Below the pieces are notes generated by a model, which was not told the DNA's origin, did not search any database, and saw only the letters and a list, made by a program, of their open reading frames with translations. Positions 3,824 through 44,888 of a stretch of DNA of 45,156 bases are shown here, piece after piece. Origin of the DNA: an uncultured Bacteroidales bacterium (GTDB lineage Bacteria; Bacteroidota; Bacteroidia; Bacteroidales; Paludibacteraceae); assembly GCA_902799555.1 (NCBI GenBank), contig CADCBB010000017.1, positions 1 to 45,156 of the forward strand, given 5' to 3'. The position numbers were made by a program, and so were the translations under genes. Every line of letters starts with the position of its first letter. Position 1 is the stretch's first letter.

Positions 3824-3999
3824 CCGGCATGGGATGCCGGGCTAATTGACGAAGAGAAAGATATCAATCTAATAAACAAAAGAGAATCTACCTGCGGGAT
3901 ATTATCCCGCGTAAACAACAAACGTTATGCGGCGAATGACAATCGCCTAAAATACGAAAAAAAATCGACATGACGTCATGACGTAATGAGGTCATGACG
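3824..3999. other. Gene-free spacer with two palindromes
   Basis: The spacer between the accessory block and nadK holds CCGGCAT/ATGCCGG (3824-3830 with 3834-3840) and a block of CATGACGTCATGACG-type repeats at about 3968-3999. The latter contains CGTCATGAC facing GTCATGACG. I see no gene between 3714 and 4102. Confidence 0.5.
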
Positions 4000-4039
4000 A
4001 ATAAATTTCCATTTTATTGGCGAAAAATCAACCGAACGC

Positions 4040-4070
4040 TTGCATATATGCAATTTTTGTTGTACCTTTG
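4040..4070 (+). promoter_or_regulatory. Promoter of the nadK-lgt-fmt operon
   Basis: TTG (4040-4042) in TTGCATATAT, 20 bp, then TACCTTTG (4063-4070). It lies inside the first codons of the longest open frame, which shows that the true nadK start is the ATG at 4103. Confidence 0.8.
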
Positions 4071-4102
4071 CAGCCGAATTTAAATTAGCGTATTGTGGCC
4101 TT

Positions 4103-4996
4103 ATGACGATTGCTATTTTTGGAAACGCGATGAAATCGCGGACAGTGACGGAGGTTCGGCATATATTGGACTTTATGACCGAGAAGGGAATTCATGTGTT
4201 GTTGTCGCAGGAGTTGAGGCAGGAGTTAGACCTGCGTGAATACCCGGGTTTTCCTGAGAACTGGGACGGAGAGACGCAGCCGGAGAACGTATATGGTGAG
4301 CCGATCGATTTCGCTGTGTCGGTAGGCGGTGACGGTACTTTCCTTACGAGTGCTGCCGCTATCGGCGATAAGAATATTCCTATCTTGGGTGTTAACTGCG
4401 GTCATCTGGGCTTCTTGGCGGAGGTTCAGACGGACGATCTGGACAAGATCCTCAAGCAACTTGTGGACGGTCAATACACGATTGAGCAACGCAGCTTGCT
4501 GCATCTGACGATCCTGGATAAGGACGGCATCGTACGGGACGGTCTGATGATGTCGCCCAACGCGCTGAACGAAATCGCCATCCTCAAGCAAGGTCTGACG
4601 AACATGCTGACCATTGAGACGAAGATCAACGGCGAGTTGCTGCACACGTATCACTCGGACGGGCTGGTCATCGCGACTCCGACCGGCAGTACGGCGTATA
4701 ACCTGTCTATCGGCGGACCGTTGTTAGTGCCGCAGAGCCGCGGCATGATCTTAACGCCGATTGCGCCGCACAGCCTAACCGTTCGTCCGATCGTTATTCT
4801 CGACGAATGGAAGATTGATATCAAGGTAAGCAGCCGTTACGATGCGTATATGGTGTCGGTCGATGGACGCAGCATGAGCCTGAGTACCGACATGAGCCTG
4901 CATATCGAACGCGCGCCGTACACGGTGAAGGTCGTGCAGATAGGTGACAACGGATTTATAAAATCGCTTCGAAACAAGCTTAATTGGGGAAAATGA
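4103..4996 (+). CDS. nadK: NAD kinase
   Basis: Phosphorylates NAD to NADP in the cytoplasm. The 297-residue protein begins MTIAIFGNAM and carries the family motif GGDGTF at residues 75-80, the NCGHLGFLAEV segment just after (98-108) and the TPTGSTAYNLSIGGP nucleotide-binding stretch near 190. The frame stays open upstream to 4040, but that region contains the promoter, so the ATG at 4103 is chosen. It is first in an operon with lgt, fmt and an HD-domain gene; its TGA overlaps the lgt start. Confidence 0.95.
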   Translation: MTIAIFGNAMKSRTVTEVRHILDFMTEKGIHVLLSQELRQELDLREYPGFPENWDGETQPENVYGEPIDFAVSVGGDGTFLTSAAAIGDKNIPILGVNCGHLGFLAEVQTDDLDKILKQLVDGQYTIEQRSLLHLTILDKDGIVRDGLMMSPNALNEIAILKQGLTNMLTIETKINGELLHTYHSDGLVIATPTGSTAYNLSIGGPLLVPQSRGMILTPIAPHSLTVRPIVILDEWKIDIKVSSRYDAYMVSVDGRSMSLSTDMSLHIERAPYTVKVVQIGDNGFIKSLRNKLNWGK

Positions 4997-5916
4997 TTTT
5001 AGATTTTATTACTTGGAATATAGACCCGATTTTGATTCATTTCGGGGATGGCGGAATACGCTGGTACGGCTTATGCTGGGCCATCGGCCTATATATCTGT
5101 TGGGCCGTAAACGAGAAGATGTACAAGCGGGAGAACTGCCCTGCCGAATGGCCTGATCAGCTGTTCTTTTGGATGGCCGCCGGCGTGATCATCGGTGCGC
5201 GTCTGGGGCATTGCTGGTTCTATGAATGGCACCAATACGGTCAGCCTTGGCACCTTTTCGGCTGGGAGTTCACCTACCGCAACCCGTACATTGAGAATCC
5301 TTTACGCTTGCTCAAGATCTGGGAAGGCGGGCTGAGTAGTCACGGCGGTGCGATCGGCCTGATCATTGCCGCTATCTTGTTGAATAAGTATAAGTTCAGC
5401 CGCTATCCGCAGTTCGGCACGAGTTGGCTGTGGATCCTGGACCGCCTGTGTATCGGCGTCTGCTTCACGGCGATGCTGATTCGTTTCGGAAACTTAATGA
5501 ACAGCGAGATCTACGGCGGTCCGACCGACCTGCCTTGGGGATTTATCTTTGTGCGTGACGGTCAGACTGTACCTTGTCACCCGACGCAGATCTACGAGAT
5601 GCTTTACTGCTTTGTAGCGCTGTGTGTCGTTTGGCCTTTGTACTGGTTCACGGACGCGCGTCGCCGCGAAGGACTGCTGTTAGGTGTGTTCCTCGAGATC
5701 GTTTTCGTGACCCGTTTTGCGCTGGAGTTCATCAAGAATGACCAAGAGGCGTTTGAGGCCGGACATGTGTTCAATATGGGTCAGCTGCTCAGTATTCCGT
5801 TCATCGCCCTCGGTATCTACCTTATTATACGCGCGTATAAGCGACCGCTGAGTCCGGTAGTGGACAAGCAGCCGAAGAGTCTTGACCCCAAATATCAGAA
5901 CAATGACAAAAAGTGA
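4993..5916 (+). CDS. lgt: Prolipoprotein diacylglyceryl transferase
   Basis: Inner-membrane enzyme that moves diacylglycerol from phosphatidylglycerol to the lipobox cysteine of prolipoproteins, the first step of lipoprotein maturation. The protein of about 307 residues is strongly hydrophobic. It shows the RWYGLCWAIG start region, IIGARLGHCWFYEW, the GGLSSHGGAIG loop and RFGNLMNSEIYG, all hallmarks of Lgt. The ATG at 4993 overlaps the nadK stop as ATGA; a TTG nine bases earlier is possible but less likely. Several probable lipoproteins that need this enzyme lie within 20 kb. Confidence 0.95.
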   Translation: MILDFITWNIDPILIHFGDGGIRWYGLCWAIGLYICWAVNEKMYKRENCPAEWPDQLFFWMAAGVIIGARLGHCWFYEWHQYGQPWHLFGWEFTYRNPYIENPLRLLKIWEGGLSSHGGAIGLIIAAILLNKYKFSRYPQFGTSWLWILDRLCIGVCFTAMLIRFGNLMNSEIYGGPTDLPWGFIFVRDGQTVPCHPTQIYEMLYCFVALCVVWPLYWFTDARRREGLLLGVFLEIVFVTRFALEFIKNDQEAFEAGHVFNMGQLLSIPFIALGIYLIIRAYKRPLSPVVDKQPKSLDPKYQNNDKK

Positions 5917-6814: not shown

Positions 6815-7361
6815 GCTCATCGATAAATACTACGGCAACTATCCTGAGTTGCGCAACGTGTTGGTGACGCATAGTCGGCAGGTGGCTGACCGTGCGTTAG
6901 CGATCGTGGACGCGCATCCCGAATGGACGGAAAAGGGCTTGGTTGATCGGCAGTTTATCGAAGAAGCGGCCATGCTGCACGATATCGGGATCATCTTCTG
7001 CGACGCGCCGAAGATCTACTGCCGCGGATCGCATAAATATATTGAGCACGGCTATTTAGGCGCAGAACTGCTGCGGGCAGAGAACCTGCCGAAACATGCC
7101 TTGGTAGCCGAACGCCACACCGGTACGGGTATCACGATCGAACAGGTAGAACGCGAAGAGCTACCGATCCCCGAACGGGACTACTGTCCGCAGAGTCTCG
7201 AAGAGAAGATCATCTGCTACGCCGATAAATTCTACAGCAAAAGTCACCTCGGCGAAGAGGTAGATATCAATAAGATCAAATATAATATCTGGAAATATGG
7301 CCACGCCGCGTTTGTACGCTGGCAGGAATTAGTAGAACTTATGGGCGAAGCCGACCGATAG
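6801..7361 (+). CDS. HD-domain phosphohydrolase
   Basis: A 186-residue cytoplasmic HD-superfamily protein. Likely metal ligands are H24 (THSRQVADRA), the HD doublet H60-D61 (AAMLHDIGI), H101 in the EHGYLGAEL region context and an Asp in CYADKF near 139. The family hydrolyses phosphoesters, often nucleotides; the substrate here is unknown. Similar short HD proteins commonly sit in Bacteroidetes core operons. It overlaps fmt by 14 bases, and its last 33 bases overlap the 3' end of the DUF3078 gene on the opposite strand, so the two operons converge. Confidence 0.8.
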   Translation: MDYIKLIDKYYGNYPELRNVLVTHSRQVADRALAIVDAHPEWTEKGLVDRQFIEEAAMLHDIGIIFCDAPKIYCRGSHKYIEHGYLGAELLRAENLPKHALVAERHTGTGITIEQVEREELPIPERDYCPQSLEEKIICYADKFYSKSHLGEEVDINKIKYNIWKYGHAAFVRWQELVELMGEADR

Positions 7362-8492
7362 CAGTTCGCGGAACTGTATCTTGGCGTGCGTATCGCCATC
7401 CATAATGACCGAGGTGTCATAGCGCGGATGCAAGGACAGACGTGCGGACATAAAGCGGTTGATAATAAAATCGCAGTTCACCTCAAGGTCTATCTCCACA
7501 TCGTGGTAGTTGGTATAGAAAAAGAATTTTGTATCCAAAGCCACTTCACGAACGGGTTTCCATGTATATTCCACACGCACCGACGAACCGATATTATGTT
7601 GGGTGCGCTCACCGGCTTTGAGGCCGTAGTCTTTGGCGTTCACCCGCACGGTATCGTGCACATGAATCATCTTATACGACAGCGGCGAGAAGGAGACGGA
7701 GAGTCCCGAAACGGGTTTATAATCAAGACCTAACGCGGCATTGAAACGGAAAGGCGAGAAGGGCCCCGACTTGAGTTCCATCGAGTTGGATTTATAGGTA
7801 GGCAGCAAGCGCGTCTCTAACTCGGCGGAGATAGAGGTAAACAACTTCGGCACAATTCGCAGGTTCGCTTTGCTATAGATTCGGAAGAGGTCATCGGTCG
7901 TGTTGACCTTATGCAGGCTGTCGGCCGAAATCGTCGAACCGCCCATACGCCATTCACCGTAGTTTTCCCAAGTGAAGCGCTCGCGAATATAACTGATCTG
8001 CCCCTTTGCGATACCGAGTCCGGCGAAGGAAGACGAACCGCCCTGATACCAGTTGGGCGTGACGTAGTTCTGCGTAATCTGCGCCATGAGGGTTGCTTCG
8101 CGCCGCCAAGGAGACCGCATCTCACGGATGGCACGCAGCACCTCATTCCGGTCCTCCACCTCATCTTTCACCCATGATTTCTCAATAACGATAGCCGGCG
8201 TACGGTTCTTCTCTTGTACTTGCAGTTCGGCATTTACCAGCCGCAAGGAGTCTATCTCATGGATCTCGCGTTGGATCGAATCGAGCCGCATCAGTTCGGC
8301 CAGCGTGAGCGTGTCAACGGTATCCGAAGCATGGATCTGTTCGCTTTGCGCAGAGACCAGATCCAAGAGCACCAAATCGATATCCGCCGTGGTCTGCTGG
8401 TCCTGCAACCTAAAGGTATCCGGATAGACTTGTTGCGCCGCCATATGCATGACAGCGCAACAAATCGTTACTATGAACAGTATTTTCTTCAT
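7329..8492 (-). CDS. DUF3078 outer-membrane protein
   Basis: A 387-residue protein with a signal peptide (MKKILFIVTICCAVMHMAAQ) and a helical linker region. From about residue 145 it has a domain starting NYVTPNWYQGGSSSF, the motif that marks DUF3078. The remainder alternates aromatic and polar residues and ends in FAHKFY, as a beta-barrel strand would. It is probably an outer-membrane protein of unknown function. It lies downstream of secA on the same strand, separated by a palindromic repeat block. Its end overlaps the convergent HD gene by 33 bases. Confidence 0.75.
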   Translation of the reverse strand: MKKILFIVTICCAVMHMAAQQVYPDTFRLQDQQTTADIDLVLLDLVSAQSEQIHASDTVDTLTLAELMRLDSIQREIHEIDSLRLVNAELQVQEKNRTPAIVIEKSWVKDEVEDRNEVLRAIREMRSPWRREATLMAQITQNYVTPNWYQGGSSSFAGLGIAKGQISYIRERFTWENYGEWRMGGSTISADSLHKVNTTDDLFRIYSKANLRIVPKLFTSISAELETRLLPTYKSNSMELKSGPFSPFRFNAALGLDYKPVSGLSVSFSPLSYKMIHVHDTVRVNAKDYGLKAGERTQHNIGSSVRVEYTWKPVREVALDTKFFFYTNYHDVEIDLEVNCDFIINRFMSARLSLHPRYDTSVIMDGDTHAKIQFRELLSVGFAHKFY

Positions 8493-8534
8493 TTCGAGAT
8501 TTCGAGATCTCGAGGTCTCGAGACGTCGATTCGA
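8493..8534. repeat. Period-8 palindromic repeat between secA and the DUF3078 gene
   Basis: Successive 8-mers CGAGATTT, CGAGATCT, CGAGGTCT, CGAGACGT and CGATTCGA form a degenerate tandem array, most units being self-complementary. It fills the whole gap between the secA stop and the next start codon. Confidence 0.75.
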
Positions 8535-11500
8535 TTAAACACCGGCCTGTAGTTTACCGTGACATTGTTTGTATTTCTTACCACTTCCACAGGGACATGG
8601 GTCGTTCGGACGTGGTTTCTTATCCACGTGGATCGGTTCAGGCCGTGCGTTCTCACGGGTGTCACGACCGGCAGCCTGGGCTGCACCTGAAGCTTGCGCC
8701 GCCTGCTGTACCGCATCTTTCTGCGTACGATAGCGGCTATAATCCATACGGCGTTGTTGCTGTGCTTGCTGCACCTTATCGGGCTCGGTCATATGAATTT
8801 GACCACGTAAGAGGATCGCCAAAGCACGGCGGTTGAGGGCGTCAAGCATCTGTTTGAAGATATTGAACGACTCCAACTTATAGATCAACAACGGGTCTTT
8901 CTGCTCGTAGGACGCGTTCTGTACGGACTGTTTGAGGTCATCCAATTGACGAAGGTGCTCTTTCCACTCATCATCGATGACGTAGAGCAACATACGTTTC
9001 TCAAACTCCCGTACCGCCTCTTTGCAATGACTCTCGGCAGCCGACTTGAGGTTGACAGCAATGTTATACACTTTCTTACCGTCGGTGATCGGGATGAGGA
9101 TGTTTTCATACATCTGTCCCTTGGTCTCATAGACATACTGAATCTGCGGATCCGCGATCTGCATCAGTTTGTCCATACGGCGTTTGAAGCTATCGAGTGC
9201 GGCCTCAGCCAGCTGTTCACTCAGCATATCGCGTTTGCTATGATGGAAGGTATCTTCATCGAACGGCACCTCAATCGCAAAGGTCTGCATCACATCGTAT
9301 TTCAGCCCTTCGTAGTCGCCTACCGAACGAGCCTCATTGAGAATGTTCTCCGCCGTCTCGTAGATCATATTCGTGATATCGACACCTATACGCTCACCCA
9401 TGAGGGCGTGGCGACGCTTCGCATAGATCAAGTTACGCTGCTGGTTCATCACATCATCGTATTCGATCAAGCGTTTACGGATACCGAAGTTATTCTCCTC
9501 GACCTTCTTCTGCGCACGTTCAATAGAGTTTGAGATCATGTTATGCTCGATCATCTCGCCTTCCTGGAAGCCCATACGGTCCATGACCGAAGCGATACGT
9601 TCCGAACCGAACATACGCATCAAGTCATCCTCAAGCGAAACGTAGAAGACGGAACTACCCGGGTCACCTTGACGACCGGCACGACCACGTAGCTGGCGGT
9701 CCACACGACGGCTCTCGTGACGCTCCGTACCGATGATGGCGAGACCACCGGCCTCTTTCACCTCAGGTGTCAACTTGATATCGGTACCACGACCTGCCAT
9801 GTTGGTGGCGATCGTTACAACACCGGCCCGACCGGCCTCAGCGACTACTTGCGCCTCCTGTTGGTGCAACTTGGCGTTGAGGACATTATGCTTGATCTTA
9901 CGAAGCGTCAACATACGACTCAAGAGCTCGGATATCTCGACACTGGTCGTACCGACCAATACCGGACGACCTTGGTTCACCATCTCCACGATCTCGTCAA
10001 TGACCGCGTTGTATTTCTCACGCTTGGTGCGGTAGATACGGTCGTTCATGTCGATACGGGCAATCGGCTTGTTGGTCGGGATCACAACGACATCCAGTTT
10101 GTAGATATTCCAGAACTCACCTGCCTCGGTCTCAGCCGTACCGGTCATACCGGAGAGTTTGTGATACATACGGAAATAGTTCTGCAGCGTGATCGTCGCA
10201 AAGGTCTGGGTAGCGCCCTCGACCTTTACGTTCTCTTTCGCCTCCACTGCTTGGTGCAGACCATCGGACCAACGACGACCTTCCATAATACGGCCTGTCT
10301 GCTCGTCCACGATCTTCACCTCACCGCCATCGATGATATAATCGACATCTTTCTCGAAGAGGGTGTAGGCCTTGAGCAACTGGTGTACGGTATGTACGCG
10401 CTCCGACTTAATGCTGTAGTTGGTCAGGATATCATCCTTGCGCTGCTGCTTTTCTTCTGCAGCCAGACCTGTCTGACCTTCCAGCTCTGCCATTTCGGAA
10501 CCTACGTCCGGCAACACGAAGAAATCGGGGTCATCGGTCGTACCGGTGAGGGCATCGATACCCTTGTCGGTCAACTCGATGGACTTGTTCTTCTCGTCAA
10601 TAACGAAATAGAGCTCGTCGGTCGCGATATGCATGTTCTTCTCGTTCTCTTGGAGGTAGAACTCCTCGGTCTTCTGGAGGCGCACCTTGATCCCGGGTTC
10701 AGAGAGGTACTTGATGAGCGCCTTCGATTTCGGCATTCCTTTGAACGAACGGAAGAGCGCCAGTTCACCCTCTTCGCGCACTTTCTCATCCTCCGAACCC
10801 ATCTTCGCTTTGGCCTCAGCGAGCAGCTTGGTCGTCAAGGTCGTCTGCTGGCGTACGAGGTTCGCTACGCGGTCTTTGTACTCATCGAACATCTGATCCT
10901 CACCACGCGGCACAGGACCGGAGATGATCAACGGCGTACGGGCATCATCGATCAAGACGGAGTCCACCTCATCGACGATCGCGAAGTTATGACCGCGTTG
11001 CACGAGATCCAGCGGGCTGATGGCCATGTTATCACGCAGGTAATCAAAACCGAACTCGTTGTTTGTACCAAAGGTAATATCGCAGGCATACGCCTTACGA
11101 CGCTCATCGGAATTGGGTTTATAGCGGTCGATACAATCGACACTCAAGCCAAGGAATTGGTAGAGCGGGCCATTCCACTCGCAGTCACGTTTGGCGAGGT
11201 AGTCATTGACGGTCACTACGTGAACACCTTCGTGCGTGAGGGCGTTGAGGTACACCGGCAAGGTAGCAACCAAGGTCTTACCTTCACCGGTAGCCATCTC
11301 GGCGATCTTACCCTGATGCAGCACGACACCACCGAAGAGCTGCACATCATAGTGCACCATATCCCATGTGATCTCATTACCGCCGGCCATCCAGTGGTTG
11401 TGATAGATCGCTTTCTCGCCGATGATCTCGATGAAGTCATAGCGCGGATCGGCTGCGAGGTCCTTATCCATCTGCGTAGCGGTCACCTCGACCGTCTCAC

Positions 11501-11870
11501 TCTGCGCAAAACGACGAGCTGCCGACTTAACGATTGCAAAGGCCTCCGGCAGGATCTCTTTTAGTACTTCTTCGTACTTATCCTTGATCTCTTTCTCTAA
11601 CTTATCTACCTCGTTGTAGATCTTCTCGCGTTTCTCGATCGGGGTCTCTTCGATGGATGCTTTGAGTTCAGCGATGCGGGCTTTCTTGTCTGCTACCGCT
11701 GCCTGCAACTTGCCCATCAGCGCCCAAGAGTGCGCACGCAATTCATCATTAGACAGCGCGTCAATGGTTGCGTACGCTGCCTTCACTTGGTCTACTATCG
11801 GTTGAATGGCACGGATGTCTTTCTCCTGCTTGTTACCGAATAGTTTGGTAATAATCGCTAAAAAATTCAT
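8535..11870 (-). CDS. secA: Preprotein translocase ATPase SecA
   Basis: The motor that pushes unfolded proteins through SecYEG. The 1111-residue protein has Walker A ATGEGKTL (193-200), the [16 protein letters not shown] motif II region, the [27 protein letters not shown] pre-motif stretch and [10 protein letters not shown]. It ends in the zinc- and SecB-binding type tail [15 protein letters not shown]. The length exceeds the roughly 900 residues of proteobacterial SecA because of an N-terminal coiled insertion (about 60-110), which is usual in Bacteroidetes. The start ATG at 11868-11870 follows a clear promoter. A long reading frame on the opposite strand is a shadow of this conserved gene. 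Confidence 0.97.
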
Positions 11871-12023: not shown

Positions 12024-12054
12024 CGGCCGATTTAACTTGCATAATTGTGTACGT

Positions 12055-12975
12055 ATGAAAAATATAGCATTTATCATCAACCCTGTGTCGGGAAGTAAGG
12101 AAACGCAGAATGCGAAGAAGAAACTGCCGAAATTGATCATGCAGACTCTGGATGCAGAACAATGGCTTCCGAACATCGCGTTCACGGAGTATGCCGGTCA
12201 TGCAACAGAGATGGCCTACCAGTACGCCCGGATGGGTTTTGATGCGGTGGTAGCCGTAGGCGGTGACGGAACGGTGAATGAAGTGGCAAGGGGATTAGTT
12301 AAAGGTGAAAGGTCAAAGGTGAAAGGTGAAAGGGCGACCGCATTAGGCATCATCCCGATGGGAAGCGGAAACGGATTTGCACGTCATCTGAACATTCCTA
12401 TCCGTCCGCAGAAAGCCTTGGAGATGATCAACCATAGCGAACCGATCAGTGTGGATTATGGTCTGGCGAACGGAGAGTTGTTTGTCAGCACATGTGGCAC
12501 GGGTTTTGATGCAGTGGTAGCCGATAACTTCGCTGCCAGCAACAAACGCGGTTTCATGACGTACCTGCAGAATGTCATCAAGGAGGCGTTCAGCTATCAG
12601 CCGCAGAACTACCACATCGTAGGTGACGGCATTGACGTGACGCATAAGGCCTTCCTGATCACTTTTGCCAATGCAAACCAATGGGGTTACGAGGCACTGA
12701 TTGCACCGAAAGCCAGTGTACAGGACGGTAAGATGGATATCATGCTGATGTCGAGTCACGCCATTTTGGGTAGCGCCAGCCTGGCTTTGCGGCTCTTTGC
12801 CGGCAGCATCGATGACAGCCATTTCATGGACACGATACGTGCGAAAGAGGTGACCTTGGAGCGCGAAGAAGCAGCGCCGTTCCATATCGATGGCGATCCG
12901 GTAGAGATGGAGAAAGATATCCATATTCAAATCATTCCGGACGGAATGAGAGTGTTAGTCGAAAAACGATTCTAA
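12055..12975 (+). CDS. Diacylglycerol/lipid kinase family protein (YegS/DgkB-like)
   Basis: A 306-residue cytoplasmic kinase. Family motifs visible are IAFIINPVSGS at the start, VAVGGDGTVNEVARGL and LGIIPMGSGNGFARHL; the C-terminal part ends FHIDGDPVEME as in DgkB/YegS proteins. It probably phosphorylates diacylglycerol or a related lipid, recycling it for phospholipid synthesis. Between the GGDGTVNE motif and the GSGNG motif lies an extra segment, VKGERSKVKGERA, encoded by the AAAGGTG micro-repeat at 12300-12333; this loop is normally short. A TTG further upstream is in frame but is too close to the promoter. Confidence 0.9.
   Translation: MKNIAFIINPVSGSKETQNAKKKLPKLIMQTLDAEQWLPNIAFTEYAGHATEMAYQYARMGFDAVVAVGGDGTVNEVARGLVKGERSKVKGERATALGIIPMGSGNGFARHLNIPIRPQKALEMINHSEPISVDYGLANGELFVSTCGTGFDAVVADNFAASNKRGFMTYLQNVIKEAFSYQPQNYHIVGDGIDVTHKAFLITFANANQWGYEALIAPKASVQDGKMDIMLMSSHAILGSASLALRLFAGSIDDSHFMDTIRAKEVTLEREEAAPFHIDGDPVEMEKDIHIQIIPDGMRVLVEKRF
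12300..12333 (+). repeat. AAAGGTG micro-repeat inside the lipid kinase gene
   Basis: Degenerate tandem copies of AAAGGTGAAAGGT in frame with the gene. The same sequence family occurs at 23116-23147 and, reverse-complemented, near 26397-26429. Confidence 0.85.
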
Positions 12976-13007
12976 ATTGGAGATTGAAGATTGAAAATTG
13001 AAGATTT
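12974..13007 (+). repeat. AAATTGA-type micro-repeat before dut
   Basis: Degenerate tandem GATTGAAAATTGAAG units fill the whole gap between the kinase stop and the dut start. The same family appears at 26332-26362 and near 44862-44884. Confidence 0.8.
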
Positions 13008-13442: not shown

Positions 13443-13482
13443 ATCGTTATAACGTTATAACGTGCTTACGTCATTACGACAT
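13443..13482 (+). repeat. GTTATAACG/GTCATTACG micro-repeat carrying the TPR gene start
   Basis: CGTTATAACGTTATAACG followed by GTGCTTACGTCATTACGACAT. The GTG start codon of the next gene lies inside this repeat. A related block sits at about 3968-3999 and another within the U32 gene at 19052-19090. Confidence 0.7.
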
Positions 13483-19388: not shown

Positions 19389-19549
19389 TGACTTGCAAGT
19401 ACTGCCTGTTGTTTGAACTCGGTCACTGCCGCAAGACGAATCCTTATCCCAAAGATAAGGAGCCGCGCTTCCTGCGTCTGCGTACGGGTAAAGTGTTGGC
19501 GCTCCATTTCGATTGTAAAACCTGCCAAATGACCGTAGACGAATGTTAG
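19364..19549 (+). CDS. Detached cysteine-rich C-terminal module of the U32 protein
   Basis: A 61-residue protein with four or five cysteines: PLMTCKYCLLFELGHC, then FDCKTCQM. As I remember the family, this module ends U32 proteins of Bacteroidales and lies in the same chain. Here it starts in another frame 25 bases before the U32 stop, so it is a separate overlapping gene or the product of a frameshift. The cysteines probably bind metal. It overlaps the pectinesterase gene by 7 bases. Confidence 0.6.
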   Translation: METTNHPLMTCKYCLLFELGHCRKTNPYPKDKEPRFLRLRTGKVLALHFDCKTCQMTVDEC

Positions 19550-20604: not shown

Positions 20605-20614
20605 ACGCTAAACG
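20585..20614 (+). repeat. CTAAACG micro-repeat ending the pectinesterase gene
   Basis: Four units of CTAAACGCTAAACACTAAACG. It fills the convergent gap between the pectinesterase and nadC stop codons. Confidence 0.8.
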
Positions 20615-21481: not shown

Positions 21482-21502
21482 AGTAAATAACATTTTGCGC
21501 TG

Positions 21503-26429: not shown

Positions 26430-26431
26430 AT

Positions 26432-33800: not shown

Positions 33801-35888
33801 GGACTCACCGTTGATCATAAAGAGGAAACTCCATTTGCTGATCTTCTTCTTCGATCGCAGGTTATAATCCATCTTCACTTTATCCGGCGAGTTACGGAAC
33901 TTAATCGGGTCGCCGAAAGAGAGCGTCGAAGACGAGCTGATACCGCCGATACCCAATATCCATCGACCGATATACACCGATTGCGGCGAGAGGGAGAAGA
34001 TACCCGGCATCGACTCCGCCGAAGTAGTCAGGAAAGCGGTCTTGAGTACCGCCGCGTAGTTGCCCTGCGTATGATCTTCCGTTCGGCTCTGATTATTTTC
34101 CGGATAATAGGTATTCCAACTGGCGGTGTTCTCCGTGGTGGCACGGATCGGAGAGTACCATCCTTGCGGACAGTAAGCCGACTCGTCGACCGCATTATTG
34201 GTCACGTTGTCATACCGGTCGAAGGTCATATCGAAGGTGATATCGCCCGGATAGAAGAACGACACCAGATACACATGTTTGTACTTGCCTTCCTCCGCTT
34301 CGACGGTCAACTTGACATACTTTTCGTTGGCGTCCACATCTACCTCAGCCCCTTCGGGCGCGGTATAGGTAACCTCCGGCGTCGAAGCAACGGATACGAC
34401 ATAACTGTAGCCGTCGGATTTAAATTGACTGATTGAGGTACCCGCCACTTGGATATCCAGCAGTTGAGCCGGATCCAGGGTCGGCCGATGCGGCGTGATC
34501 GTATAGACCTTATCCGCCTCGTCCGGGTTGAGGGACTTGACGATGATCTTCGTCGGATCTGATACGCCACCCTCAATAATAATCACCTTCTGCTCCGGAT
34601 AGTTCTTCGCTACGGAGATCACCTTCAGCGAGTCCATACTGTACGGCAGATCGATGGTGAAGTCCGGGCCTTTCGTCATATCGAGTGCACCCACGCCGTC
34701 TACTACGATACCCAATAATTCATTCACCTTATTGGAATAGCCTACGCGATAAGTGAACGTATAGGTGGCTTGCTTGCCGTTCTCAGCCGTTACGAGGATG
34801 GTTGAAGGCTGACCGATAGGCGCCTCGGTAATCACCAAGGACTGAGTCGGTTCAGCGCGCTCCACCGTCAGCGAAGGAGACTGAGTCATACCGTAAGGAA
34901 GCAACAGGTCCGTATAGGTCATCACCGCAGGATCAAACACAAAATTATCCACGCCGTCTATCTCCACCGATGCCAGCGCGGTATTGTCGGAGCGGGTAGC
35001 TCTGAAGAGGATCTTATAGGTCTGCGTACTCACGCCGTCCGCCGCCACCACCTGAATCGTTGTCCAGCTGTTCAGGGCACCGTGTGAGACGGTGATCGTC
35101 TGCCCTTTGGTAGCGGCTACCGGTACGACGGCCGGCACCTCATAGGTATTAGCAGGCAATTTACTGTAGATATAAGAGAATGTGGTCGGCTTGAAGGACG
35201 CATAGGGCTGTCCGCCGATATATAGCGCACTCAGCGAGGCATCATGCGATACGGGGAACGAATCGATCGGGAAAGGCGGCAGGGAGGCTGCATCGGGCGA
35301 AACGAGCGTCACGGTATACGTGATCGATGTGCCTTCATCCGGCGTCACCTCGATACGAGCCGTGCCGTACGTCGAAGGCATGGCGATAGCTACCGTCTGA
35401 CCTTCCTGACCCGACACCGTCACTACCGGCATCGTCGCCTCGTGCCATACCAGCGAATAATTCAACTGCTCCGGCACGAAACCGCTCAAGGAATCGCCGT
35501 TCAGATAAATCATCTGCAGCAGGGCACTCGCCGATTTCTCCACCTCCATCGAGAGGGTATACATCCGGGTTGATCCGTCCCCTGCCGTCACGGTCAGACG
35601 AACGGTCATCAAGGCCGCATTGACGGTCACTGCTACCTGCTGGTAGCTATCACCCGGGATATAGGTCACCTCCGGCATACCGGTCGTACCGGCCGGTAAG
35701 AGCACATGATAGTTCAGCACCTCCGGATCAAAGTCCGCCAGCGCTTCCCCGCCGATCATGATAGAGGACAGGGCATTATTGGTCGATTTCTCGGTACGGA
35801 AAGCGAGCCGATAGGTCGTTGTGGCGCCGCTGGGGGCTACCACCTCGATACGGGTTGTACCTTCCACTCCACCCTCGGTCATCGTCAC
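30849..35888 (-). CDS. Cadherin-like/PCMD surface protein, C-terminal 1,679 residues (frame broken from 35885-37594)
   Basis: Tandem cadherin-like beta-sandwich repeats, about 15, each with an F.p....Y.v.lP pattern such as ADFDPEVLNYHVLLP. A central segment (about residues 555-830) contains a second PCMD-like domain (TFDRYDNV and WVDNMRFEY). It ends with a tail like a type IX secretion signal: FAVYDMAGRLV, then FYVFFDTKTKRIEKGGKF. The predicted start (GTG at 35888) falls inside a cadherin-like repeat and is not credible as a real initiation site. The codons just before it, in the same frame, still fit the repeat (GEDHQRV). This is the downstream part of a protein whose N-terminus is in the preceding frame. 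Confidence 0.75.
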   Translation of the reverse strand: MTMTEGGVEGTTRIEVVAPSGATTTYRLAFRTEKSTNNALSSIMIGGEALADFDPEVLNYHVLLPAGTTGMPEVTYIPGDSYQQVAVTVNAALMTVRLTVTAGDGSTRMYTLSMEVEKSASALLQMIYLNGDSLSGFVPEQLNYSLVWHEATMPVVTVSGQEGQTVAIAMPSTYGTARIEVTPDEGTSITYTVTLVSPDAASLPPFPIDSFPVSHDASLSALYIGGQPYASFKPTTFSYIYSKLPANTYEVPAVVPVAATKGQTITVSHGALNSWTTIQVVAADGVSTQTYKILFRATRSDNTALASVEIDGVDNFVFDPAVMTYTDLLLPYGMTQSPSLTVERAEPTQSLVITEAPIGQPSTILVTAENGKQATYTFTYRVGYSNKVNELLGIVVDGVGALDMTKGPDFTIDLPYSMDSLKVISVAKNYPEQKVIIIEGGVSDPTKIIVKSLNPDEADKVYTITPHRPTLDPAQLLDIQVAGTSISQFKSDGYSYVVSVASTPEVTYTAPEGAEVDVDANEKYVKLTVEAEEGKYKHVYLVSFFYPGDITFDMTFDRYDNVTNNAVDESAYCPQGWYSPIRATTENTASWNTYYPENNQSRTEDHTQGNYAAVLKTAFLTTSAESMPGIFSLSPQSVYIGRWILGIGGISSSSTLSFGDPIKFRNSPDKVKMDYNLRSKKKISKWSFLFMINGESNKYEEAFTADRTWKTMSLPIAYSDDFIPSALEIRINSGDYETPAAYNVNSLTESDGYLSEMWVDNMRFEYSSALNGITVNGVAATRSGNAFTATVAADYKGLPNIVLQHAVYDQMPVVTWSEEVNRVRTATIRNYAEDLSYTDYTLTVTRPKSTNVSCTCSLNGRDLTVIKGSPYQTIDVQAYNNNQDTAYVVTVTAETGKQKSYTVLWRSATNMETARVTKVLAENVISAESTARLVNLETTPVLNYNREFAFDSVAMLMTDSAYELRVFGISTDTTYIIDRHASSNALLESMQANGQMIPGFNSENYDYSVSLSSLDSFSAEAQDSTAVVQYIILPIDASYYAIYVLVTAGDSKTQSRYSVLAHIHPLSSEAYLTAIQADGVMLNGFASDQYNYTISLPAHSAIPQLSSVACAGAEVETTTTPDGSSATVTFTVISEDGSVTRIYTVQVNVAPSDISTLSDLYVNGVPVEGFAAEQTTYTVELPRGASAPDVYYVLTDKTSKAVLVQDASSVTITVTAEDGIHTTVYTIALTYAKSTNANLQAIYLDGEPLADFYADEYAYTITLPFGASIPVVTADAEDSAATVSVSEDGTTITVTAEDGKTKNVYTLTFTFLPSTNANLQAIYLNGVLQYGFAPDTYEYKDTVLFGAPMPVVTWTVGDEQQVVDTAWVGDTELTIAVTAGDGLATAEYILTFEHLLSSNCRLADLQVRGTTVEGFHPDTIVYTFTYPAGTPSTALFEQADVTAVTEDEEATVTIMMDENATAQILVTAPDGTRRVYVIYQHIIRSSEARLRMIWLDADTLRRYEMDTLHYEIVLPQGAIMPVITAEPLDTLATWELGMPVETESGTTVDVYGIAEDGTMLTYSLSFTFANWAPSAEVDPDDYFFFYLGDGRYKAVTIGIGVQFAVYDMAGRLVLFQTLPTADPADVEVDVDQNGNQILRSALPSADGVVFDAKAGQPYFYVFFDTKTKRIEKGGKFEWK
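31919..32193. repeat. Near-identical DNA repeats within the cadherin-like array
   Basis: The segments near 31919-31955 and 32158-32193 share TAGATCGCCTGCAGGTTCGC and further bases, corresponding to the peptide NLQAIYL in neighbouring repeats. Such repeats favour deletion by recombination. Confidence 0.7.
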
Positions 35889-38412: not shown

Positions 38413-40176
38413 ATGAGAACAGAAGATCAAGTACGCGACGATGCCAATAAAATCCTTGGTTTAGTAGATACCGAAACCGCCAAAGCCGGTGTCGGTCAGA
38501 TAACGTCCTTTGGCAAATTATTAGGAATTAAAGGAGAGGGCGCAAATAATCGTCCTGATGGATGGTATTTCCCTAACGAGTCCTCGTTTCCCGCTATCAT
38601 AGTTGAGTTTAAAGGAGAGGATAAAGACCTTAAACAAGCGCATATAGATGAGTTACTCAAGAATTGTCGTATAGCGCATGCTAAATATAAAAACATCATC
38701 GGCATCCTATATAATGGTATCGATATACTCGTATACAAAAACGAAGAATTAGTGCAAGGAGAAAAGGAGTTGCTGAATAAAGAGCATTATCTTGGGCTTT
38801 TTGCGCAAAACACCATTGACAAGCAGAAGATATACAACCTTACCAAACGCATCAATGACAACCTGCATTTTAAATTCGGCATCAATGATCTCAAAGACCG
38901 AATGATCTTCACAGCTTGTGCGCTTGTGGCAAAGCGTTATGAGGCTATCTTGACAAAAGGTATGTCCTATAATGTTTTGCGCGCATCAATTTTTGATACA
39001 CTTAACAAGTCATTTGAGAGTGCCATTCAGCAGAACATAAAACTCAACATCCTCTTAGAGAAATACGCTGCCGTACAGGTGAATAATCCCGAAAATCAAG
39101 ACGCTATCGATGATTTTATTGAATGTATCTCGGATATATCCGATAATATCAACTCTGATTTTTGGCAGGGAGAGGACGTAATGGCGATTTTCTTTAACGA
39201 GTTTAATCGCTATAAGGGAAAGTCCGACCAAGGTCAGGTCTTTACACCAGACCACATTACATCGCTCATGTATCGCCTTATTCATGTAGATAAGGATGAT
39301 ATCGTATTAGACGCAGCATGCGGTAGTGGTGCATTCCTCGTTAAGGCGATGTGTAATATGATTAAAGCCGCCGGCGGAAACAATACTGATAAGGCAAAAG
39401 ACATTAAACGAGACCAGTTGTATGGCATCGAGATAGATAAGAAGATCTTTGCATTAGCTTGTGCCAATATGCTCATACACAAAGACGGCAAGACAAACCT
39501 TGAGAACTTGGATAGTTCGACTCCTGAAGCCGCTCAATGGATAGCGTCAAAAGGCATTACGAAAGTGCTAATGAACCCGCCTTTTGAATCCAAATACGGA
39601 TGCATTGATATTGTGCAAAATGTACTGGAGAATGTCACTTCAAACACCCTTTGTGCGTTCATTATGCCCGATAAGAAATTAGAGAAAGACCGCAAAGGAA
39701 AGAAGCTGCTTAAGAAACATACACTCCTCAAAATCATCAAATTGCCGGAGAAGGTTTTCGGTGAAAGTGTAACGGCCTCGATCTTTATTTTCAAAGCTCA
39801 AAAGCCCCAAAACGATAAGGAGATTTTTGCTTGTTATATAGCTGATGATGGATTAGAAACGGTTAAACTACAAGGACGTCAAGACATCCGTGACCGTTGG
39901 CAGGCTATTGAAGACAAATGGGTAGAGATTATAGAGAAACAATCCGGAGACGAAACCATTCAATGGCTTAAGCCTTCGGAACATCTTTCCTATCAAATGC
40001 CTGAAAAGCCTTTCGAGATCTTTGAAGAGGACTTCGTTAAGACCATGATGGACTATGAGATGTTCAAGCAAGGTATAGATGTGAAGGAGTTTAACGAACA
40101 ACTTCTGCAACAGATCCTTTATAGTAGTGAGGTTTCCGAAAACGAAAGTTCTACCCAAATCAGCCTTTCCAAATGA
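38413..40176 (+). CDS. BcgI-like restriction-modification subunit: N-terminal nuclease plus N6-adenine methylase
   Basis: A 587-residue protein joining two activities. Residues 40-110 form a PD-(D/E)xK nuclease domain: PD (48-49), then VEFK (64-67) with GILYNGIDILVY after it. Residues about 170-500 form an N6-adenine methylase with QVFTPDH (275-281), motif I DAACGSGAF (300-308) and the catalytic NPPF (388-391). This arrangement, with a separate specificity subunit, is that of the BcgI-like type IIB/IIG systems, which cut on both sides of their site. It overlaps the specificity gene by 4 bases. Its A/T content is higher than that of the core genes. Confidence 0.85.
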   Translation: MRTEDQVRDDANKILGLVDTETAKAGVGQITSFGKLLGIKGEGANNRPDGWYFPNESSFPAIIVEFKGEDKDLKQAHIDELLKNCRIAHAKYKNIIGILYNGIDILVYKNEELVQGEKELLNKEHYLGLFAQNTIDKQKIYNLTKRINDNLHFKFGINDLKDRMIFTACALVAKRYEAILTKGMSYNVLRASIFDTLNKSFESAIQQNIKLNILLEKYAAVQVNNPENQDAIDDFIECISDISDNINSDFWQGEDVMAIFFNEFNRYKGKSDQGQVFTPDHITSLMYRLIHVDKDDIVLDAACGSGAFLVKAMCNMIKAAGGNNTDKAKDIKRDQLYGIEIDKKIFALACANMLIHKDGKTNLENLDSSTPEAAQWIASKGITKVLMNPPFESKYGCIDIVQNVLENVTSNTLCAFIMPDKKLEKDRKGKKLLKKHTLLKIIKLPEKVFGESVTASIFIFKAQKPQNDKEIFACYIADDGLETVKLQGRQDIRDRWQAIEDKWVEIIEKQSGDETIQWLKPSEHLSYQMPEKPFEIFEEDFVKTMMDYEMFKQGIDVKEFNEQLLQQILYSSEVSENESSTQISLSK

Positions 40177-41303
40177 AGAAGATAGATACAAATGGTTGGA
40201 ACGAATTTACTGTTGAATACCTTTTTCGTGTTCTGAAGTGTTCGAAGAAAGTAGGGCAAAAGGAAACTAATGAAGAAGGAAAGGTACCTGTGTATTCTTC
40301 AGAATCGTTAAATAATGGTATAGTCGGATATTGCAATCTAAAGCCCTCATGGATAGTAGACCATGAAAATCCGTTATATTTAATTTTTGGAGACCACACA
40401 AGAACTTTTCATATTGCAGATAGTAGTTTCTGTGTTGCTGACAATGTGAAAGTATTATTACCTTTACATGCTGAAATGAGTGTTAAGGTTCTACAATATA
40501 TTTCATCTGTTTGGCAAAAAGAGATACCGGATTTAGGATATTCAAGACATTGGTCGGCTGCAAAAAAGTTGAAGATACTTCTTCCTTCTAAGGACGGAGT
40601 TCCTAACTGGCAATTTATGGAAGAATACATGCGCCATATAGAGCAGCATGTTCAAAGTACTATATTCGCACTTAAAGATGCCCAAAGCAATCCTCTTAAA
40701 ATAGATCATTCTAATTGGAAAATGTTTGATCTTAAAAGACTTTTCGACATTGTTCTTTCAAAAGGAGATATTCAAGCAAAGAAGATGAAAGAGGGCGACA
40801 TACCTCTTGTCTCTTCTGGTAAATTTAACAATGGTATCTGTAAATATATCGCAGAAGGAGATGGTAAAGCAGAGATGTTTGATGCTAACGTTATAACTAC
40901 GGACATGTTTGGTAAATCGTATTTTCAGGATAAACCATTCTATGCTGTATCTCATGGGCGAGTAAATATATTGTTGCCATTGTTTAGGATAAATAGCTAT
41001 ATAGCAAAGTTCCTTGTTAGTGTACTTGATGCTTCTTTCTTGAGTAAATATTCTTTTTCTGGTATGTGTTGTCAGAAAGAGTTACAGAAAGAGAAAATCC
41101 TTCTCCCCGCGAAAGGCGATGAACCCGACTGGCATTATATGGAAATGTATATGCGTGGTGTTGAAGCGATCGTCAAAAACAAGCTTTCCTTGCTCGTTCC
41201 CCATAAGCCGGAATTAACTATTCAGGACGCCGCGTCCATTACTTTCAATGGCGCAAACGTGACCTACATTGATAATAGTAAGAATTATTCGTTAGAAAAA
41301 TAG
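40173..41303 (+). CDS. Restriction-modification specificity subunit (BcgI B-like, two target-recognition domains)
   Basis: A 376-residue protein built from two target-recognition halves: residues 1-170 (WNEFTVEYLFRVLKCSKKVG, ending ILLPSKDGVPNWQFMEEYMR) and 180-345 (WKMFDLKRLFDIVLSKGD, ending ILLPAKGDEPDWHYMEMYMR). The repeated ILLP..dG.P.W..ME.YMR motif marks the end of each half. It gives sequence specificity to the nuclease-methylase before it. The last 20 residues (TFNGANVTYIDNSKNYSLEK) are an extra tail that resembles the N-terminus of the protein encoded at 41548. The gene is very A/T-rich, a sign of transfer. Confidence 0.85.
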   Translation: MKKIDTNGWNEFTVEYLFRVLKCSKKVGQKETNEEGKVPVYSSESLNNGIVGYCNLKPSWIVDHENPLYLIFGDHTRTFHIADSSFCVADNVKVLLPLHAEMSVKVLQYISSVWQKEIPDLGYSRHWSAAKKLKILLPSKDGVPNWQFMEEYMRHIEQHVQSTIFALKDAQSNPLKIDHSNWKMFDLKRLFDIVLSKGDIQAKKMKEGDIPLVSSGKFNNGICKYIAEGDGKAEMFDANVITTDMFGKSYFQDKPFYAVSHGRVNILLPLFRINSYIAKFLVSVLDASFLSKYSFSGMCCQKELQKEKILLPAKGDEPDWHYMEMYMRGVEAIVKNKLSLLVPHKPELTIQDAASITFNGANVTYIDNSKNYSLEK

Positions 41304-41547: not shown

Positions 41548-41958
41548 ATGAGTAAGCCGGTATTTCTTAATTCCAAAGTAGTCTATCACGACAACTCTCG
41601 TGAGTACCATATCGATGCGCGCGGCAAAGATCTTGCATCCGTTATGCGCGCACTTGAAGCGGAAGATGTCGCGCCTGTCGTTCAAGATGAACCGTCGAAG
41701 GAAGAGAGTAGACTTCCCTTCTTTGTCCCAGAAAAATTAGCCGCTCTCGGCACATATTCCATTTCGGAATTTGTGACCATGTATCATGATGCGGTCAAGG
41801 GCGGAGCACCCAAATTAGCTAAGTTCATCAAACATTATAAAGAACTCGAAGTCTTTGATACCGGAGATCTGAATAAGAAAGAGACATACGAAGAATTAAA
41901 GGCGTATTTTGGCGCTGAATTAGACTTCGGCTATCCGAATTTTGCCGTCTATTATTGA
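41548..41958 (+). CDS. Unknown mobile-element-type protein, 136 residues
   Basis: No recognised domain. The N-terminus, NSKVVYHDNSREYHIDARG, resembles the tail of the specificity subunit (VTYIDNSKNYSLEK). It is followed by a Glu-rich linker and a helical second half (SISEFVTMYHDAVKGG, LAKFIKHYKELEVF). It has a structured 5' leader of about 200 bases. It stands between the restriction-modification genes and a set of phage-like small genes and probably belongs to the latter. Confidence 0.6.
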   Translation: MSKPVFLNSKVVYHDNSREYHIDARGKDLASVMRALEAEDVAPVVQDEPSKEESRLPFFVPEKLAALGTYSISEFVTMYHDAVKGGAPKLAKFIKHYKELEVFDTGDLNKKETYEELKAYFGAELDFGYPNFAVYY

Positions 41959-42059
41959 TAAAATCCATTTGATTTTCATTTGATTCATTTGATCGCAAAT
42001 AGCCCTCTATTTGATTTTCATTTGATTTTTATTTGACTCATTTGATTCTCATTTGATTA
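41957..42059 (+). repeat. ATTTGATTCATTTGATT micro-repeat block
   Basis: About eight degenerate units of CATTTGATTTT or CATTTGATT over some 100 bases, between the stop of the unknown gene and a terminator. Confidence 0.85.
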
Positions 42060-42906: not shown

Positions 42907-42919
42907 AATATAACTTGAT

Positions 42920-43393: not shown

Positions 43394-43411
43394 TTTTAAA
43401 ATTTAAATTTT

Positions 43412-44135: not shown

Positions 44136-44179
44136 TATGCATTACCTATTCATTACCTGGTTATTACCTGTTCAGAATT

Positions 44180-44506
44180 ATGAAAATCATTTTATCTAAA
44201 CAATGCGAGTCCCTTACCGGCTCGCTCGGACGAGGCTTCGGCTATCATATTCAGAAGCGCAAAAACGGCTACTTTGCCAAAAGAAACTCGAAAGGCGTTA
44301 TACCGCCTGACGGCCATTGGCGCTTTATCCTTACCTGCGCCCAACTCGCACAATCCAAACTCCATATCGCCGACATCCGTGTCTCGCGCGAAGAACTCAA
44401 GCAGGCCATGTATGAAGCTCGCATCTTCATCGCCATGCAGCACCTCCGCAAAGCCACCTACGATGCCCGCGACATCATCAACCTCAAAACCACTTTTAGT
44501 TTATGA
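44180..44506 (+). CDS. Conserved mobile-element protein of unknown function, 108 residues
   Basis: The N-terminus SLTGSLGRGFGYHIQKRKNG, then VIPPDGHWRFI, is a pattern I recall from small Bacteroidales phage or integrative-element proteins. The second half is helical. Its TGA overlaps the next ATG as ATGA. Confidence 0.6.
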   Translation: MKIILSKQCESLTGSLGRGFGYHIQKRKNGYFAKRNSKGVIPPDGHWRFILTCAQLAQSKLHIADIRVSREELKQAMYEARIFIAMQHLRKATYDARDIINLKTTFSL

Positions 44507-44736
44507 AAAAGGAAAAGAAAATTATGATTCATTCGGTCTTGAACCATCTTCAAGAGAGAGACTCTGCTTGGGCGCATGGTAAGATGCTACCTAAGTTCAA
44601 AACCCTGTATGGCGGATGGGCGGATACATGTGTACGCCATCATAAACACTCGCGGGAGTACTTCTCGCGCAAATGGAGAGACGGATGGTTGCCTTTAGAG
44701 GAATATCTGGACTTTTACAAGTACGTCATGCAGTAA
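44503..44736 (+). CDS. Small basic protein, 77 residues
   Basis: Begins at the ATG of an ATGA overlap; an internal ATG at 44524 is an alternative. It is rich in Trp, His and Lys (KTLYGGWADTCVRHHKHSREYF). No family is recognised. Confidence 0.5.
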   Translation: MKKEKKIMIHSVLNHLQERDSAWAHGKMLPKFKTLYGGWADTCVRHHKHSREYFSRKWRDGWLPLEEYLDFYKYVMQ

Positions 44737-44759
44737 AATTGACAATTATCAACGGACGG

Positions 44760-44789
44760 AGCCACAAAATTTGGTGGCTTCGTTTTTTT
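44760..44789 (+). terminator. Intrinsic terminator overlapping the next promoter
   Basis: AGCCAC (44760-44765) pairs with GTGGCT (44774-44779), followed by CG and seven T. The -33 TTG of the next promoter (44771-44773) lies in the loop. Confidence 0.7.
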
Positions 44790-44801
44790 GTTGTACTTTT
44801 G
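44771..44801 (+). promoter_or_regulatory. Promoter of the membrane-protein gene
   Basis: TTG (44771-44773), 20 bp, TACTTTTG (44794-44801). The leader contains a hairpin CGCGG/CCGCG (about 44831-44846). Confidence 0.65.
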
Positions 44802-44888
44802 CACCGGATTTCAAAAAGAGGTCCTGCTCTCGCGGCTAATTCCGCGAGCATAATTTTGGATTTTGAATTTTTAATTTTTAATTCTGAC

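Follow-up and report, generated by a model that had tools for sequence, protein, structure and literature searches.

Degenerate heptad arrays and a copied composite repeat in the genome of an uncultured Paludibacteraceae bacterium

The contig CADCBB010000017.1 (assembly GCA_902799555.1), which comes from an uncultured member of the Paludibacteraceae and was analyzed here over its whole length of 45,156 bp (the window), holds many short, degenerate tandem repeat arrays of 7-bp (heptad), 8-bp (octad), and related units. The arrays lie between genes and within the loops of conserved enzymes. At two loops they are insertions relative to outgroups; at five loops they almost always keep the reading frame; two species whose flanks are nearly identical have, at one site, arrays that are unrelated; arrays at separate sites have sequence words in common; and a composite element built of heptads has been copied between sites. 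We consider it probable that the arrays are non-autonomous dispersed repeats that are copied within the genome, have spread among related species, and survive where they are tolerated.

Within its assembly, which measures 2.34 Mb and is 86 per cent complete (G000, the own genome), the window is contig C17. Together with 20 stretches of 20 kb from the same assembly it forms a 445-kb sample of about one fifth of the genome (the own sample), which was compared with 59 loci of relatives recovered with the U32 peptidase protein of the window. These loci are from Paludibacteraceae, uncultured Bacteroidales, or Bacteroidales, several of them from stomach compartments of sheep, goat, cattle, or buffalo. 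The genomes compared are mostly metagenome assemblies, and several assessments were made by eye and are approximate.

Arrays were detected with Tandem Repeats Finder (TRF), and their significance against shuffled sequence was assessed at scores of 40 and 50. With a score of at least 40, the window has 20 arrays (mean of 0.72 and maximum of 3 in 50 dinucleotide shuffles), and at a score of 50 it has 11 (mean of 0.08 and maximum of 1 in the same shuffles). A stricter, ungapped custom detector found eight arrays in the window and none in 30 shuffles. The own sample contains 168 arrays at a score of 40, compared to 5–11 in five shuffles. At a score of 45, it reaches 30 arrays per 100 kb, whereas 282 kb from five other Bacteroidales genera yielded 15 arrays (0–10 per 100 kb); for periods of 7, 14, or 21, the counts are 61 and 3, respectively. 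Two further congeners were sampled, with seven arrays in 40 kb of G011 and none in 4.8 kb of G004, and the 59 loci of relatives hold 480 arrays in 947 kb. The initial annotation had listed 18 repeat places in the window, and each of them has a TRF row of at least 30, with 15 reaching 40; the three weaker places are at 13445 (38), 14382 (35), and 19053 (36). Its unit size of 7–14 bp was nearly right: periods are mainly 7–9, 11, and 12, but their multiples and sums include 15, 16, 18, 20, and 21 as well as 14. Degenerate 7-bp tandem units occur at many loci and in several families, with 61 arrays of 35 different units in the own sample and 287 more arrays in the relatives.

Of 135 arrays that could be placed, 51 are intergenic and 24 cross a gene boundary (8.5 and 4.0 expected), so that 75 are non-coding or at boundaries where 12.5 are expected, and 60 are intragenic. 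These fractions are approximate because the home-made hexamer gene caller behind them missed the SpoU methylase gene. The period of the intragenic arrays is not a multiple of three in 38 cases and is a multiple of three in 22, some of which are ordinary protein repeats. Overall, 47 of the 397 genes called in the own sample carry an array. In six intragenic arrays, AAAGGTG is the coding-strand unit, and wherever a perfect array would yield TGA, these six have, as judged by eye, a changed base (peptides KGERLKVKGER and KGERSKVKGER).

Arrays at different sites of the own sample share words much more often than controls do. Specifically, 239 of 9,021 different-site pairs have at least three 9-mers in common, whereas 20 draws with internally permuted units gave a mean of 15.8 and a maximum of 31. 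The 61 heptad arrays have 35 distinct units instead of the 54.5 expected (minimum of 48 in 500 composition-matched draws); 12 of these arrays have AAAGGTG as their unit (at most 5 in controls). Across its 2.34 Mb, the own genome contains 46 overlapping matches to the pattern AAAGGTGAAAGGTG, compared to 7 for the reversed pattern; AAAGGTGAAAGGTG is present in 23 of 61 genomes, the own genome included, with 0 to 46 matches each. When relatives are added, the 348 heptad arrays have 119 distinct units (237 expected), but this count includes orthologous copies, and the claim of word sharing therefore rests on the own-genome count. Sharing pairs make up 3.3 per cent within genomes, 5.9 per cent within the relatives' loci, 2.0 per cent between genomes, and 0.2 per cent in the control.

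These counts, along with the recurrence of one unit order in the composite element described below, bear out the earlier argument that slippage alone would not place the same words at separate sites. As had been claimed, AAAGGTG is common to 12301 and 23112, but at 26397 it is reverse-oriented and mixed with AAAAGTG. The pairing of 16042 and 19180 through AAATGGT/ATTTACC stands. AAATTGA stands unaltered at 26333 and in approximate form at 12974, whereas the third place assigned to it (44852–44887) has a different unit, AATTTTG/AATTTTT. A further common word, CGTTATAA, links 13445 and 19053. Two outcomes set beforehand as arguments against spread by copying, namely families found once per genome or equally conserved in all relatives, are not what we observed.

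Loop arrays and their exchange between close relatives

The arrays lie in and between genes, as the initial annotation had stated, and some of those inside genes occupy loops. In the DAG-kinase-family gene (12037–12975, +), an AAAGGTG array at 12301–12333 (TRF score 59) encodes KGERSKVKGER. Among 54 species, the window included, this loop is empty (4–6 bp) in 32 and measures 24–38 bp in 22, and the filled alleles belong to families such as AAAGGTG, TCAGCCG, and GTTACCG, where family labels are crude single-linkage clusters. On a quick species tree in which 17 of 55 inner branches are starred, presence requires at least 7 changes and family at least 18. The loop has 14–15 residues in all 15 outgroup genomes compared (22 searched, 7 unmatched) and 23 residues here. 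Similarly, the SpoU-methylase gene (17416–17988, +; Pfam SpoU) has a CTTTCAA array at 17773–17804 (TRF score 55), and the loop has 22 residues here compared to 13 in 17 of 22 outgroup genomes (maximum 18). Hence, the arrays in both loops are insertions relative to the outgroups, each making its loop 9 residues longer than the usual outgroup form. The SpoU loop exceeds the shortest allele by at least 15 bp in 45 of 58 relatives and is in frame in all 58; 34 of these 45 long alleles are periodic, 30 of them with period 7 or 14. In an AlphaFold model of the SpoU protein (pTM 0.84), the insert is predicted to lie between a helix (113–121) and a strand (133–137).

The U32 peptidase gene (17802–19388, +) has three such loops, with an octamer CCATCATT array at 18745–18779 (loop 1; TRF score 59), an octamer CGTTATAA array at 19052–19090 (loop 2; 36), and an AAATGGT array at 19180–19215 (loop 3; 47). 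The loop 2 array is identical in the relative L011 and differs in most others shown, and the loop 3 array is also identical in L011. At loop 1, all 59 of the 59 alleles examined keep the frame, and the relatives have other families or GC-rich palindromic elements of the CCTCTCC...GGAGAGG type (L024, L034, L036, L046, L048, and L058). Across the five loops of these three genes, 287 of 288 alleles keep the frame, and the DAG-kinase set holds both the sole frame exception and the sole loop with a stop. Because unit number leaves the frame intact, we rejected phase-variable contingency repeats as an account of these five loops.

Spacers vary in a similar way. An ATTGAAG array at 12974–13007 (+), detected by TRF, fills the spacer between the DAG-kinase and dUTPase genes, which measures 4–14 bp in 10 of 47 species and 20–137 bp in the other 37, the window included.

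Fifteen close pairs with mean flank identities of 87.5–98.5 per cent provided 173 array comparisons, with sites counted from both sides. Eighty arrays were unchanged, 35 were altered in length or sequence, 42 were replaced, and 16 were absent or short. In one replacement, the left 60 bp at one site are identical between L032 and L039, two species with 98–99 per cent identical flanks, and GTGAAAG units in one stand opposite GTAATTG units in the other. Elsewhere among near-identical species whole units are missing, which is the pattern expected from slippage; slippage or unequal recombination therefore acts as well. Differences near replaced arrays amount to 0.47, 0.24, and 0.14 in three 10-bp bins within 30 bp, compared to 0.04–0.07 where the array is unchanged; as the count treats unaligned ends as differences, we do not use this excess as proof.

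A composite element of about 60 bp

The composite element consists of about 60 bp of irregularly spaced heptads, AATTGACGATTGGACGATTGACGAGGTACGATTGATTGACGATTGA...AATTGACGATT. Own sample and relatives together gave 13 matches of at least 60 bits, compared to a mean of 0.35 and a maximum of 5 for 60 queries with shuffled unit order. The query's own locus is one of these 13, some of the rest stand at the orthologous spacer, and a minimum of 7 are found elsewhere. The own genome has at least 11 matches, and 30 of the genus's 81 genomes, the own genome included, have a match; outside the genus, 148 genomes of the order gave two weak partial matches. Between the own genome and a species with 71 per cent identity in the U32 protein, the composite is 95–98 per cent identical.

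In 20 fetched copies inspected by eye, the left end is sharp and the flanks are mostly unrelated. The exceptions are L127 and L143, which stand ahead of the same gene in two genomes, and L136 and L139, which have about 20 bp downstream in common. L144 carries three tandem copies, and some copies adjoin an ATG directly (L127 and L135). An inverted arm of a GATTTACG variant follows the composite in six of the 20 (L126, L134, L137, L140, L141, and L142), and the remaining 14 are single or in tandem. The inverted doublet of L137 folds better than shuffles (z = -3.8). Single copies start with AATTGACG and finish with TTGACGATT; the ends are direct, and so do not form the terminal inverted repeats of a miniature inverted-repeat transposable element (MITE).

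Six of the 20 copies were scanned against Pfam as parts of proteins, and all six lie in open frames whose matches span or flank the insert; six further open frames of at least 90 codons extend over composite copies. The six enzymes are unrelated, and the composite is reverse-oriented in every one. Hosts in the own genome are a protein with a GT28 C-terminal domain (which we take to be MurG-like), EPSP synthase, an SpoU methylase, PrmC, and an Fer4_20/NAD-binding protein; the sixth host is a radical SAM protein in G190. The added peptide has NRQSIVNRQSSNRQ in L130, L132, and L133 and SSINRTSSIVQSSI in L129, L131, and L145, the two motifs being two frames of one composite DNA strand. In the composite consensus, the peptide-coding strand is open in three frames, whereas the other strand has stops in all three.

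The composite has been copied between sites, and the evidence of copying extends to the composite families, about three in all. The second family with a common internal order has an 11-bp unit, TTAGTAGGTGA (three copies), and the third is ATTTACC/ATTTGGTC (six places). In the sample, three copies of a dispersed element of 113 bp (L071:2286–2399, L079:8749–8861, and L081:9813–9925) carry 11-bp iterons of TTAGTAGGTGA in one order and have their ends in common. The order test carries no information for perfect heptamers. The earlier statement that copying must be involved is thus upheld for the composite families, but simple heptamers may owe their recurrence to copying or to slippage, which also acts.

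Origin of the arrays and comparison with known systems

If the arrays are dispersed repeats, as we think probable, degenerate heptad, octad, and related arrays of about 25–70 bp and composites of these would survive between adjacent genes, where some fill the whole stop-to-start spacer, and within genes in enzyme loops, where their lengths would keep the frame and their registers or orientations would be free of stops. Slippage or unequal recombination would add units to resident arrays or remove them, and an array would occasionally be lost or exchanged for unrelated sequence. Copying would most likely proceed by the templated insertion or replacement of short patches, through either illegitimate (microhomology) recombination or the repair of breaks, and arrays would often be the donors; we prefer such a step because it would explain the replacement of arrays within nearly unchanged flanks. 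A name for a step of this kind is short-patch double illegitimate recombination. We infer that the families of simple heptamers spread as the composites do and that they are mainly neutral. A bolder version, which we hold tentatively and rate as somewhat doubtful, treats heptad arrays as mobile cassettes, in which a process probably based on recombination would remove or overwrite the 25–70-bp array at a fixed site and put in its place an unrelated array copied from elsewhere. Equally doubtful is its corollary that the exchange is fast enough for species with about 98 per cent identical surrounding DNA to differ.

Several observations weigh against spread by copying. No target-site duplication is evident by eye in the flanks of the 20 composite copies, and no moving enzyme was identified. 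By a crude whole-loop test, just 10 of 21 long DAG-kinase alleles are periodic, and the long alleles of the three U32 loops are periodic in 1 of 33, 0 of 6, and 0 of 26 cases; part of the loop variation is therefore not plain tandem repeat, some of it being GC-rich palindrome. Likewise, the replacing sequence is periodic by a simple test in just 17 of the 42 replaced cases (sites again counted from both sides). Replaced arrays show a slight in-register identity excess (0.54 compared to a mean of 0.48; n = 17), which is weak and could hint at local evolution of units. Word sharing within genomes is just 1.7–3 times that between genomes, where orthologous sites are included. Finally, the excess of common unit order in the own genome (17 per cent of pairs compared to 5 per cent) is due to a few families, so that perfect heptamers could still arise locally.

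Such a local origin, by in-place slippage that favors steps of 7–8 nt, with similar words arising from AT-rich, stop-free, or hydrophilic constraints common to loops and spacers, seems to us unlikely as the general explanation. It agrees with the whole-unit length changes between near-identical species, with the AT-richness of the heptads (GC 0.30) and their bias to units without C or G (45 of 61 compared to 33 expected), and with the register CAAAT that many array families at the SpoU site have in common. It does not predict word sharing about 15 times that of composition-matched controls, nor a composite whose fixed irregular order recurs at unlinked sites, with the 95–98 per cent identity between species given above, nor a whole unit that differs between L032 and L039. 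We judge it similarly improbable that the arrays are MITE-like or REPIN-like elements whose movement depends on a transposase of the RAYT (REP-associated tyrosine transposase) or HUH type encoded elsewhere in the genome, although such elements would fit the multiple copies, their sharp left end, and the inverted doublets, the one that was folded included. The initial annotation saw no encoded transposase, and Pfam finds none among 26 proteins or pieces of the window, but the own genome encodes RAYT-like proteins outside the window, and 50 of the genus's 81 genomes have them. They occur in 23 of 30 carriers of the composite and 27 of 51 non-carriers, an association that is not significant (Fisher test; P-value = 0.057). 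Two genomes rich in the composite, G021 (at least 15 matches) and G190 (at least 11), have no RAYT match at an E-value of 1e-20, both being incomplete (63 and 77 per cent complete). Moreover, two RAYT-like genes that were examined (L083:16551–17543 and L089:8565–9509, on contigs C6 and C13 of G000) adjoin other short repeats. We take their products to be RAYT-like by motif; Y1_Tnp matches the L083 protein weakly and the L089 protein not at all. One repeat family beside RAYT-like genes occurs at 8 places in the 445-kb sample, one of them at window 3782–3819. A simple array folded with its surroundings (window 12260–12370) does no better than shuffles (z = +0.77). Within the explanation that we prefer, an RAYT-type transposase may still move the inverted-doublet forms.

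A selected function, as protein-binding or translation-leader elements near start codons of the kind proposed for TAACTGA repeats in Maribeggiatoa, is less likely again. Among the 75 non-coding or boundary arrays, 25 per cent lie within 10 bp of a start, compared to 16 per cent of random non-coding placements, and some composite copies directly abut an ATG. The excess is stronger at stops, however (44 per cent within 10 bp compared to 14 per cent), the DAG-kinase/dUTPase spacer is free of arrays in 10 of 47 species, the family at a given site changes freely, and 60 of the 135 placed arrays are inside called genes. An assembly artifact would be conceivable in that most compared records are assemblies of uncultured bacteria, but it is highly improbable: the arrays are mostly short, nearly all loop alleles keep the frame, and the window and L013, a separate record, have an identical 33-bp array at one and the same site.

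As a working analogy rather than a proved membership, the closest systems appear to be the short tandemly repeated repetitive (STRR) sequences of cyanobacteria and the palindromic elements of Rickettsia. STRRs are degenerate 7-bp tandem repeats of several families with a patchy distribution between close relatives, and some of their units and peptides may be similar to those found here. They differ from the present arrays in belonging to another phylum; here, periods of 8, 9, 11, and 15 also occur, arrays are often in frame in conserved enzymes, and a composite element has been copied. To our knowledge, there is no settled account of the origin and spread of bacterial heptamer repeats. Surveys of such repeats in bacteria include the suggestion that slippage is favored at 7 nt as the contact length of the polymerase (PMC4679880 and PMC4692102). 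The P6b loop of the Nostoc tRNA-Leu intron is described as carrying one of two heptamer motifs with repeated shifts between them (PMC4476775), which on that description closely parallels the exchange of arrays here. The Rickettsia elements are described as palindromes of about 150 bp inserted in frame in unrelated genes (PMC10969869). As described there, they are similar in that short dispersed DNA lies in frame in unrelated metabolic genes and adds a related peptide, and all six Pfam-tested composite frames have this arrangement; they differ in being palindromes of about 150 bp, whereas here direct heptad arrays of about 25–70 bp belong to many families that are exchanged at one site, and the composite has about 60 bp of direct repeats with some copies forming inverted doublets.

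Other systems are less similar. A published single-unit heptad system is likewise strain-specific, mostly intergenic near start codons, with a few arrays reversed in open reading frames (ORFs) and no evident transfer mechanism. It has one dominant unit, in contrast to 119 consensus heptads in 348 arrays of the genus (orthologs included) and to the family exchange at one site seen here. Porphyromonas gingivalis is another member of the order Bacteroidales. Its BrickBuilt element, a minisatellite-MITE, is described as having a 23-bp unit and a leader and tail with small inverted ends, and as always intergenic; in that description it resembles the present case in placing tandem repeats within a dispersed multi-copy element (PMC4596501). 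The GGGAATC/GGGGAYT heptamer arrays of Xanthomonas and Nostoc are described as G-quadruplex-forming and G-rich (PMC4692102). According to the same source, they are also dispersed, variable in length and sequence between close relatives, and often near gene ends, whereas the units here are AT-rich. Among the matches listed in the open-access PMC literature, no publication deals with heptad arrays of Paludibacteraceae or describes such arrays inserted in frame in Bacteroidales.

Dozens of congeners with alignable flanks and with empty, filled, and swapped sites make the origin of heptamer repeats testable. The arrays also indicate that neutral or selfish DNA repeatedly lengthens conserved enzymes in frame; species-specific loops in such proteins therefore need not mean adaptation. 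If cassette exchange were true, loops of essential enzymes would evolve by swapping, and the same process would underlie cyanobacterial STRRs.

Remaining arrays and neighboring features of the window

The genes of the window are of Bacteroidales type, among them those for SecA, DAG kinase, dUTPase, the U32 peptidase, and DUF5686. An octamer array, CATGACGT in 3.9 copies, lies between genes at 3969–3999 (TRF score 48). The octamer TCGAGATC at 8494–8529 (46) takes up most of the spacer between the ORF at 7329–8492 (-) and the SecA ORF at 8535–11870 (-; SecA by Pfam), with related copies at L075:16117 and L078:8319. The CGTTATAA-type octamer at 13445–13482 (+; TRF row 13445–13463) is at the start of the ORF at 13462–14322 and has a partner at L071:13764. 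A degenerate AGTCGAA array at 14381–14412 (+) is inside the DUF4292 gene (14273–14866), where L014 has another array. At the start of the FKBP-type gene (16023–16562) is the ATTTACC/ATTTGGTC array of period 15 (16042–16077, +; TRF score 58), a member of the dispersed cluster of six places, two of them within the window. GCTAAAC units at 20586–20614 (51), between the ORFs at 19543–20604 (+) and 20615–21505 (-), are replaced in L011 by an AATTTTT/AATTTTC array.

Three arrays are inside the DAHP synthase/chorismate mutase gene (22280–23221, +; Pfam): the 9-bp GAATAATCC at 22564–22593 (46), an 18-bp (2 × 9) array at 22919–22966 (78), and, in the chorismate-mutase part, in-frame AAAGGTG units at 23112–23147 that encode GERLKVKGER. 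The AAATTGA array at 26333–26362 (-; 60) is near the start of the ORF at 25581–26411 (-), and TTTCACC/TTTTCAC units at 26395–26429 mark the junction of that ORF with the one at 26432–29269. Downstream of the ORF at 41548–41958, a 10–11-bp ATTTGATTCTC array spans 41957–42059 (65 for 42009–42058 and 53 for 41966–42057), and the AATTTTG/AATTTTT array at 44852–44887 (44) is upstream of the last called gene, with partners at L074:19208 and L089:17269. TRF rows additional to the 18 places of the initial annotation include the following: a 12-bp repeat at 34219–34245 (-; 47) in the large ORF at 30849–35888, which may be an ordinary protein repeat given its period of a multiple of three; an 11-bp TATTCATTACC array between ORFs at 44136–44174 (43); and an array at 43369.

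A search of the window for tRNA genes found none, and Rfam at gathering scores gave no RNA family match in it. Two lower-GC stretches, one toward each end of the window, hold restriction–modification genes, with an EcoRI-type methylase and a GmrSD/HNH protein at 1362–3578 and a type I N6_Mtase with a specificity subunit at 38413–41303. Elsewhere in the own genome there are two reverse-transcriptase (RVT_1) matches (G000:C16:24629–25195 and 26203–26673). Window 1–231 is nearly the same as L074:1–174, the start of contig C2, a repeat at contig ends. Additionally, 9-bp CCTAGG arrays at gene starts in L074 (4523 and 7112) encode LGILGLLGLL, which resembles the cores of signal peptides.

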